A stretch of DNA of 64,000 nucleotides from an uncultured Draconibacterium sp. (lineage in GTDB: Bacteria; Bacteroidota; Bacteroidia; Bacteroidales; Prolixibacteraceae). The notes below the pieces were generated by a model that had not been told where the DNA came from, did no database searches, and was given only the letters and a program-made list of their open reading frames with translations. The position numbers were made by a program, and so were the translations under genes. Of the stretch, positions 22,478 to 24,363 are shown one piece after another; within the stretch, counting starts at the first letter, position 1, and each line of letters starts with the position of its first letter. The stretch is from the NCBI RefSeq assembly GCF_963675585.1, contig NZ_OY776414.1, forward strand, positions 3,575,001-3,639,000. The letters run 5' to 3'.

Positions 22478-22508
22478 TTTTGGGTTGTAGAACATTTTTA
22501 TATCTTTG
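22478..22508 (+). promoter_or_regulatory. promoter of the queuosine operon
   Basis: TTTTG at 22478-22482 (-33 element) and TATCTTTG at 22501-22508 (-7 element, followed by C) are separated by 18 bases, close to the Bacteroidota consensus TTTG-N19-TAnnTTTG. A transcript would start near 22515, leaving a leader of about 43 bases, almost all of it the preQ1 riboswitch. Confidence 0.7.
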
Positions 22509-22522
22509 CGGCCATTATTAAT

Positions 22523-22556
22523 CACGTGTTCTTGATAACCACGTAAAAAACAAGAG
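22523..22556 (+). promoter_or_regulatory. class I preQ1 riboswitch, translational type
   Basis: P1 is ACGTG (22524-22528) pairing with CACGT (22540-22544). The L1 loop TTCTTGATAAC ends in the C (22539) that would pair with preQ1; the TAAC-plus-P1 arrangement matches the Thermoanaerobacter tengcongensis aptamer. An A6 tail (22545-22550) would lie in the P1 groove. P2 is a pseudoknot between CTTG in the loop (22531-22534) and CAAG in the tail (22551-22554), extendable by U-A (22530/22555). The tail ends just before the ATG at 22558. Queuosine-precursor genes follow. Ligand binding would pull the bases before the start codon into P2 and lower translation (inferred). Confidence 0.85.
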
Positions 22557-22557
22557 T

Positions 22558-23250
22558 ATGAAAAACAAAGTTTCTGTATTGTTTATGCTGACAGGTATTT
22601 TATTCGCAGCCTGTCTTCTTCTCTCCAACATCCTTGCTTCAAAAATTATGATGATCGGGCCATGGTCGGCGCCGGCAGGTGTTCTAATTTTTCCACTGGC
22701 TTACATTATCAACGACGTTTTGGTTGAAGTTTGGGGTTATCAGAAAACCCGTCTTATCATTTGGGCAGGTTTTGGAGTAAATGTACTGGCCGTACTATTT
22801 TTTACCCTGGCTATTTCGGTAACTGCTGCACCGTTCTGGCAAAACCAGGATGCATTTACAACTGTTTTGGGAAGCACTCCTCGAATTGTAGCAGCCAGTA
22901 TGCTGGCTTACCTTTTAGGATCGTTTCTTAATGCGTATGTAATGAGCAAATTTAAAGTACTTACCAAAGGAAAAGGTTTTTCAATTCGCGCCATTTTATC
23001 AACTTTGGTTGGCGAAGGTGCCGATTCTTTGATTTTTATTTCCATTGCTTTCGCCGGACTGTTTCCTGTAAAAGTAATTCTTGGAATGATTGTTACACAA
23101 GCTTTAATGAAAACTGTTTACGAAATTGCTGTACTACCGCTTACCATCTGGACAGTGAACAAGGTTAAAAAGATGGAAGGAATTGATACTTTCGATTACT
23201 CGGTTTCTTACAATCCATTTCGTTTAAAACAAATTGAAAATGCCAACTAA
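22558..23250 (+). CDS. yhhQ: queuosine precursor transporter (YhhQ/VUT-1 family)
   Basis: Membrane protein of 230 aa with about six helices, e.g. residues 7-28 (VLFMLTGILFAACLLLSNIL) and 37-55. Family hallmarks are SNILASKIM near the start, PLAYIINDVLVEVWGYQKTR after helix two, and GSFLNAYVMSKFK with STLVGEGADSLIFI later. YhhQ proteins take up queuosine precursors such as preQ0 or preQ1. This fits the following queC and queF genes, with which it overlaps (11 bases) and must be co-transcribed. A preQ1-I riboswitch lies in its leader, so uptake and synthesis would both fall when preQ1 is plentiful. Confidence 0.92.
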   Translation: MKNKVSVLFMLTGILFAACLLLSNILASKIMMIGPWSAPAGVLIFPLAYIINDVLVEVWGYQKTRLIIWAGFGVNVLAVLFFTLAISVTAAPFWQNQDAFTTVLGSTPRIVAASMLAYLLGSFLNAYVMSKFKVLTKGKGFSIRAILSTLVGEGADSLIFISIAFAGLFPVKVILGMIVTQALMKTVYEIAVLPLTIWTVNKVKKMEGIDTFDYSVSYNPFRLKQIENAN

Positions 23251-23896
23251 CAAAGCACTGGTTGTTTTTTCCGGAGGACAAGATTCAACAACCTGCCTTT
23301 TCTGGGCAAAACAGAATTTTGAAAATGTGTGGGCCGTGGCATTTGATTACGGGCAACGCCACAAAATTGAACTGGAAGCTGCCCGCCATATTTCGGAGAA
23401 TGCAGGAGTTCCCTTGCAAATTTTCAAAATGGATTTATTGTCGCAGTTAACAGTAAATGCACTTACCTCATCAGGAATCGAAGTTGAAAAACAAAAGCCG
23501 GATGAACGTCCACCCAATACTTTGGTGGAAGGCAGAAACATGCTTTTTCTGACCTACGCTGCCATTTATGCCAAAGCAAACAATATCGCCAATCTGGTTA
23601 CCGGTGTTGGTGAAGCCGATTTTAGCGGCTACCCCGATTGCCGAAATGATTTTATTGTTTCGCTCAATCAAACCTTAAACCTGTCGATGAATTTTGACTA
23701 CAAAATACACACTCCACTAATGTGGAGAAATAAAACCCAAATTTGGCAACTTGCCGATGAATTGGGCGTATTTGAGATTGTAAAAGACCAGACAGTAACC
23801 TGCTACAATGGAATAAAAGGAGCAGGCTGCGGCGAATGCCCTGCTTGCGGATTACGAAACAAAGGATTGCAAAACTACTTAGCACAAAAACAATGA
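23240..23896 (+). CDS. queC: 7-cyano-7-deazaguanine synthase QueC
   Basis: ATP-dependent enzyme that turns 7-carboxy-7-deazaguanine into preQ0 in queuosine synthesis. 218 aa from the ATG at 23240 (an in-frame TTG at 23234 would add two residues). The PP-loop is [16 protein letters not shown] at residues 8-23. [15 protein letters not shown] and [16 protein letters not shown] are typical. The C-terminal zinc site [17 protein letters not shown] supplies four cysteines. It overlaps the transporter start-to-stop by 11 bases and overlaps queF by ATGA. QueD and QueE are not in the window. Confidence 0.96.
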
Positions 23897-24363
23897 GCGA
23901 ACTAAAAAACCTGGGACAGGAAACCAATTACCTGTTTGATTACAAACCTGAAGTTTTGGAATCGTTTGACAACAAACACCCCGAAAACGACTACTGGGTA
24001 AAATTTAACTGCCCCGAATTTACGAGCTTGTGCCCCATTACCGGGCAGCCCGATTTTGCAACCATCTACCTGAGTTACATCCCCGACGAAAAGCTGGTGG
24101 AAAGTAAAAGTTTGAAATTGTACTTGTTCAGTTTCCGTAATCACGGTGCTTTTCACGAAGACTGCATCAATATTATTATGAAGGATTTAATTCAGTTAAT
24201 GAATCCGAAATACATTGAAGTATGGGGCAAATTCCTGCCACGTGGCGGCCTGAGCATCGATCCGTTTAGTAACTACGGAAAACCCGGAACAAAATACGAA
24301 GAGATGGCCTGGTATCGTATGCAAAACCACGATTTAAATCCGGAGAGAATTACTAACAGGTAA
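23893..24363 (+). CDS. queF: NADPH-dependent 7-cyano-7-deazaguanine reductase QueF
   Basis: Reduces the nitrile of preQ0 to the amine of preQ1. The 156-aa protein is the short single-domain type (B. subtilis-like). The catalytic Cys is in [13 protein letters not shown] near residue 53, and the QueF motif [18 protein letters not shown] follows, with substrate-binding Glu-Ser and His. The ATG at 23893 overlaps the queC stop (ATGA). Its product preQ1 is the predicted ligand of the leader riboswitch, making a feedback loop within the operon. Confidence 0.96.

Follow-up and report, generated by a model that had tools for sequence, protein, structure and literature searches.

Does the short leader that precedes yhhQ in a Draconibacterium-like genome form a preQ1 riboswitch, and how could such an element control translation where Shine-Dalgarno sequences are rarely used? 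An initial annotation of the window (the whole stretch of 64,000 nucleotides analyzed here) had proposed a minimal class I preQ1 riboswitch ahead of a YhhQ-QueC-QueF operon. That reading is supported by an RNA fold and pocket bases that are both conserved, by a fixed position relative to the AUG and by queuosine genes downstream. We consider it highly probable that a class I preQ1 riboswitch of type II in this leader controls translation of yhhQ-queC-queF, a reading within which we infer ligand binding, repression at the step of translation and coupling to queC and queF.

The leader and its operon

Read from the sequence, the leader of the yhhQ-queC-queF operon has the order ACGTG-TT-CTTG-ATAAC-CACGT-AAAAAA-CAAG-AGT-ATG. 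The proposed parts (P1 ACGTG/CACGT, a loop ending in TAAC, an A6 tract and a CTTG/CAAG pseudoknot) are thus present letter for letter, and the element does lie directly before the start codon of the queuosine transporter, its P2 tail ending 3 nt upstream of the yhhQ ATG at 22558-22560. The features are as follows:

22501..22508, + strand: TATCTTTG box, TAnnTTTG-like; a sequence match, with similar boxes in the leaders of relatives
22524..22528, + strand: P1 5' arm, ACGTG; from the sequence, the Rfam alignment and pairing in relatives
22529..22539, + strand: P1 loop, ending in TAAC; from the sequence
22529, + strand: L1 uridine, T in 75/75 sequences; counterpart of the ligand-edge uridine in solved preQ1-I structures (passages of PMC10622847)
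22531..22534, + strand: P2 5' arm, CTTG (pseudoknot); from the sequence and pairing in relatives
22539, + strand: putative specificity cytidine, the A before it completing the type II 'AC', 75/75; signature from passages of PMC11625349
22540..22544, + strand: P1 3' arm, CACGT; from the sequence and pairing in relatives
22545..22550, + strand: L3 adenine tract, A6, at -13 to -8 relative to the AUG; from the sequence, and proposed also as an A-rich initiation enhancer
22551..22554, + strand: P2 3' arm, CAAG; from the sequence and pairing in relatives
22558..23250, + strand: yhhQ, queuosine precursor transporter (PF02592, TIGR00697); passes the NCBIfam cut-off
23243..23896, + strand: queC, 7-cyano-7-deazaguanine synthase (TIGR00364); passes the NCBIfam cut-off
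23893..24363, + strand: queF-II, preQ1 synthase (TIGR03139); passes the NCBIfam cut-off in profile searches run on 23896 onward, with the start read from the sequence

All three genes score above NCBIfam cut-offs; among named organisms, D. aestuarii has the closest YhhQ (93% identical). Because queC begins within the last codons of yhhQ (an overlap of 8 nt) and queF begins at an ATGA overlap with queC, a single initiation site could govern yhhQ, queC and queF. We take TATCTTTG to be a match to the Bacteroidota -7 box, TAnnTTTG, and its position makes a transcription start near 22512-22515 plausible; the leader would then be ~43-46 nt long.

Conservation and covariation among relatives

A search with YhhQ across 101 genomes returned 39 matches of 42-100% identity, taken as orthologues, and the element stands before the start codon in 37 of them, the window being one. 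These comprise 30 leaders (29 found by a strict pattern and the variant L038) and L084, L111, L117, L121, L123, L124 and L150; the L111 element was read directly from its leader, and the yhhQ row that our script gave for that locus looked misregistered and was not used. The leaders of the orthologues L122 and L125 lack the element. A collection of named organisms, which overlaps the 101 genomes in organisms, has it in 27 of 29 loci; there the sequence of L055 ends 6 nt upstream of the gene, and the leader of L067, a Lachnospiraceae homologue of 46% identity, is without it. Among relatives the element is nearly unchanged while its flanks diverge.

Of 295 genomes of the order, 38 (20 family labels) had matches to a covariance model built from 16 versions of the element (R1), 45 in all at E <= 0.01; each match is on the coding strand, with yhhQ (37) or queC (8) downstream. 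A script assigned the downstream gene in 44 cases; it missed L117 (gap 3 nt), assigned separately, because the alignment start of that gene overlaps the element. Seven genomes (G120, G128, G164, G180, G225, G317 and G346) hold both yhhQ and queC copies. When R1 and a lineage model, R2, were run on the phylum and class, each matched in 9 of 395 genomes, and the matches outside the order were weak and had no que match nearby (L100, L103 and L104, E 0.006-0.034; L128 and L129, E 0.014-0.018); under strict filters and with lineage-specific models, this form of the element was therefore seen only in the order among the sampled genomes. One genome carries a second element (L131, G741:C1:475905-475939) 4 nt before a gene that by eye resembles queD, which would extend the regulon. 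In the window's own genome, the leaders of a queD-like gene (L144) and of a yhhQ-like paralogue (L153) show no such element by eye. Parses of the element in or before queC (e.g., L021, L069, L070, L077, L091 and L102) are probably chance or misregistered and were not used.

The leader was also examined singly. The suggested search with the Rfam PreQ1 model (RF00522) aligned it over its full length and in the right register and scored 13.4 bits, below the gathering score of 39; the corresponding E of 4.6 (4227 families, 401 bases) becomes ~0.001 for one family in one stretch, which is fair but not decisive. At least 24 other places in the genome score higher, at 14.3-18.7 bits, among the 150 of 2532 candidates scored, and single-leader folding gave a z-score of -0.17, no better than shuffled sequence. 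The Rfam model alone, being below threshold here and not discriminating genome-wide, was accordingly rejected as proof, and single-sequence folding as support. R2, which contains the window sequence as one of its rows, scores the locus at 51.6 bits and the next place listed at 16.7 bits (6.03 Mb genome, 150 of 6259 candidates scored). Judged by sequence comparison, the leader taken singly hardly beats chance, and with its relatives it clearly does.

R2 matches 78 of 82 chosen loci at E <= 0.001, yielding 75 distinct rows, which are mutually related and some of which were found by a model already containing P1. Pairing is found in 99.7% of cells for the inner four pairs of P1, in 99.3% for the four of P2 and in 99.5% for all 8 together; 4 pairs are changed on both sides. 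One P1 pair is C-G in 66 rows, A-U in 5, G-C in 2, U-G in 1 and unpaired in 1, another is U-A in 67 and A-U in 8, and the remaining two inner pairs are invariant. In P2, double changes occur in one sequence each: L112 has A-U in place of C-G, and L123 has A-U in place of U-A. There are 17 doubly changed cells, against a mean of 1.6 in shuffles, none of 500 of which reaches 17, and when the partner column is shifted by 1-3, such cells number no more than 5 and the score drops from 0.108 to 0.043 or lower. The doubly changed P1 spans six family labels (f4, f9, f19, f26, f60 and f105). The covariation looked for in both stems is therefore present as compensatory change: P1 covaries well, and P2 covariation rests on two sequences. 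The 5-bp helices first proposed can form at this locus, where T22530-A22555 is a possible fifth P2 pair, but the longer helices are not family features, because the fifth pair is standard in only 24/75 rows for P1 and 26/75 for P2. In most relatives the P1 sequence is nearly fixed, beyond what the fold alone requires.

The bases expected to hold the ligand are constant. Invariant in 75/75 rows are the L1 uridine (alignment position U8), the AC that precedes the 3' arm of P1 (A19 and C20), the final four adenines of L3 (A35-A38) and the closing G-C. Passages of PMC10622847 and PMC11625349 describe the conserved L2 cytidine as the specificity base and the L1 uridines and L3 adenines as readers of the ligand's edge, and C22539 is the cytidine expected to pair with preQ1.

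Some relatives vary the theme. L038, L101, L102 and L118 have UUCUAG or UUCCAG loops with altered P2 pairing; they lack the CUUG/CAAG pairing and stand outside the model and the pair counts. In L038, L101 and L102 the tail is CAGGA and contains a Shine-Dalgarno-like word. Many relatives (L069, L070, L075, L078, L079, L084, L105 and others) carry an extra hairpin of unrelated sequence that ends at or next to P1; in the window leader no such hairpin is seen 5' of P1. Of 51 dissimilar leaders, 12 have a stem of at least 6 bp flush with P1, where 200 shuffles give 1.9 and never more than 5, and the counts at 1-4 nt from P1 are 11, 8, 9 and 6; because they fall so slowly with distance, the exact flushness is not sharp.

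Class assignment and competing explanations

The three types of class I preQ1 riboswitch were reportedly defined in a 2014 paper. The relatives combine a P1 hairpin with a covarying tail-loop pseudoknot P2 (75 sequences; 4 of 82 loci uncounted), a specificity C, an L1 U and L3 adenines (75/75 each), and a place upstream of queuosine synthesis or transport genes (45/45 R1 matches in the order), as is characteristic of class I. AC rather than UC before the P1 3' arm, which marks type II (passages of PMC11625349), is found in 75/75, and the P2 tail is CAAG rather than the sequestered AAGG Shine-Dalgarno of type III. With covarying leaders, invariant pocket positions and queuosine genes downstream, the leader looks like a class I preQ1 riboswitch of type II-like form that would bind preQ1. 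The initial annotation had been unsure how often the class is reported in Bacteroidota; a 2024 review lists this phylum for type I and describes the distribution of type II as similar (passages of PMC11625349), and because the review already does so, we regard the element as belonging to a known class rather than a new one, in a lineage form that lies below the Rfam cut-off and has a plausible Shine-Dalgarno-free output. Passages of PMC3766115 describe preQ1 motifs as mostly limited to Firmicutes, and the main text of PMC11089507 has no match for preQ1. Our literature search found no paper joining preQ1, riboswitch, Shine-Dalgarno and Bacteroidia, which does not in itself prove absence.

With the type II elements of T. 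tengcongensis and B. subtilis, the Bacteroidales form shares the H-type pseudoknot, an AC ahead of the 3' arm of P1, the L1 uridine, the A-rich L3 and a P2 made by the tail (passages of PMC11625349 and PMC10622847). It differs from them in a P1 usually of 4 bp with nearly fixed CGUG/CACG, a P2 of CUUG/CAAG in most rows, almost no Shine-Dalgarno-like words and scores below the RF00522 cut-off. Like the E. coli yhhQ type III element (passages of PMC11625349 and PMC10622847), it has yhhQ downstream, AC at the specificity base and a start codon adjoining; unlike it, the Bacteroidales form has a CAAG P2 tail and a loop beginning UNCUUG, whereas in type III the loop is rich in pyrimidines and P2 sequesters an AAGG Shine-Dalgarno. 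Under stricter filters, none of 291 genomes searched in the order has a match that reaches the RF00522 cut-off (36 have weaker ones, E <= 0.1), and of 395 searched in the phylum one does (G458); a B. subtilis control passed in both searches. In 20 chosen loci of relatives the model gave no match at E <= 1. The G458 match (L145) lies directly before a gene that by eye resembles a different YhhQ. Type I-like elements in the same order (L132, L134, L135, L137, L139, L140 and L152) share the pathway and the class I layout but differ in a GACAG/CUGUC P1, UC before the 3' arm and a CUAG or CUAAG tail; RF00522 scores the first six at 25.5-29.2 bits, under its cut-off. This GACAG/CUGUC form precedes divergent queC or yhhQ genes and is partly seen also in L133, L151 and L152.

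An inverted repeat near a promoter, strongly fixed in sequence, might instead be a DNA operator, CGTG...CACG, bound by a transcription factor that controls the queuosine genes, and the P1 changes would fit it too, since the two arms of a palindromic site may likewise vary in a symmetric way. Yet the constraint is asymmetric: beyond the repeat, CTTG, AC and the A-tract are conserved as strongly as the arms. The P2 arms, likewise not part of the repeat, show joint changes in L112 and in L123, P1 includes G-U pairs, and 45/45 R1 matches lie on the coding strand. Spacing likewise argues for an RNA acting near the AUG: in 81 distinct yhhQ leaders the P2 end lies 3.9 +/- 0.8 nt (range 2-6 nt) from the AUG, whereas the TAnnTTTG-like box, of which 72 of the 81 leaders have a loose match (TANNTT[TC][GA]) in the upstream 70 nt, lies 21 +/- 13 nt from P1, a contrast that is somewhat overstated, because the leaders were prefiltered for a gap of <12 nt and the last box match was taken, widening the spread, although the 2-6 nt gap stands. 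We regard an operator as very improbable. The tightest spacing seen is in L150 (G048), where CAAG abuts the AUG with no spacer (CAAGATG).

A class I fold might alternatively favor a different intermediate of the queuosine pathway, for instance preQ0. YhhQ proteins transport that compound along with preQ1, queC produces it, and earlier in-line probing had pointed to it for the type III element linked to yhhQ. Yet the same source reports preQ1 favored over preQ0 ~17-fold (Tte) and 138-fold (E. coli) (passages of PMC10622847), and the pocket positions named for preQ1 are unchanged here, so that we find such a preference unlikely. Only slightly less unlikely is a real aptamer that acts through transcription, by termination or pausing, or through mRNA decay, rather than through translation. 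The class has transcriptional members, such as B. subtilis (passages of PMC11625349), and in four relatives (L074, L082, L113 and L115) the element sits 72-169 nt upstream of the queC AUG, a distance that excludes direct occlusion, so that these loci need another output mechanism; no terminator is obvious by eye downstream of them. At the present locus, no terminator fits between aptamer and gene, because only 3 nt separate P2 from the AUG, and the 2-6 nt gap in the 81 yhhQ leaders speaks equally for control of translation.

Proposed translation control without a Shine-Dalgarno sequence

Under the preferred reading, a type II preQ1 riboswitch controlling translation, scarce preQ1 would leave the 3' tail (A6-CAAG) free and ribosomes would start at the AUG 3 nt downstream. 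When plentiful, preQ1 would pair with C22539 in the loop, the A-tract would dock along P1 and CUUG/CAAG would close the pseudoknot; with about -34 to -4 then folded, transporter synthesis would fall, and the overlapping queC and queF starts would probably pass the effect down the operon.

What would be hidden is the most interesting point. Bacteroidetes are described as lacking Shine-Dalgarno sequences, and initiation in F. johnsoniae is promoted by adenines at -3, -6, -12 and -13 and tuned by structure near the start (passages of PMC6847099). A Shine-Dalgarno-like word occurs in 4 of 43 mechanically called window genes against 2.2 expected, no clear excess, and 2 of the 81 element leaders have GGAG, GAGG or AGGA downstream of P1 and ahead of the AUG. 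From its position, the element could obstruct ribosomes that work independently of a Shine-Dalgarno. In 66 distinct element leaders, A occupies -13, -12 and -11 in 85, 95 and 100%; the 43 window genes, without a clear peak there, have 47, 49 and 51%. We tentatively suggest, at somewhat less than even confidence, that the L3 A-tract doubles as a Bacteroidota A-rich initiation enhancer, for which ligand and ribosome would compete with no separate expression platform, preQ1 thereby hiding the enhancer; the overlap is suggestive only, because the aptamer needs the A-tract anyway and the window genes show no clear peak.

These findings point to an annotation gap, in which a conserved queuosine regulon in one Bacteroidota order (20 family labels) is missed by the Rfam model. 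With ~45 nt from predicted start to AUG, the leader offers a compact natural test case for riboswitch control of translation where the Shine-Dalgarno is rarely used; in a phylum mostly without such sequences, its A-tract overlaps positions that promote initiation in F. johnsoniae, and its output may therefore be the feature of greatest interest.
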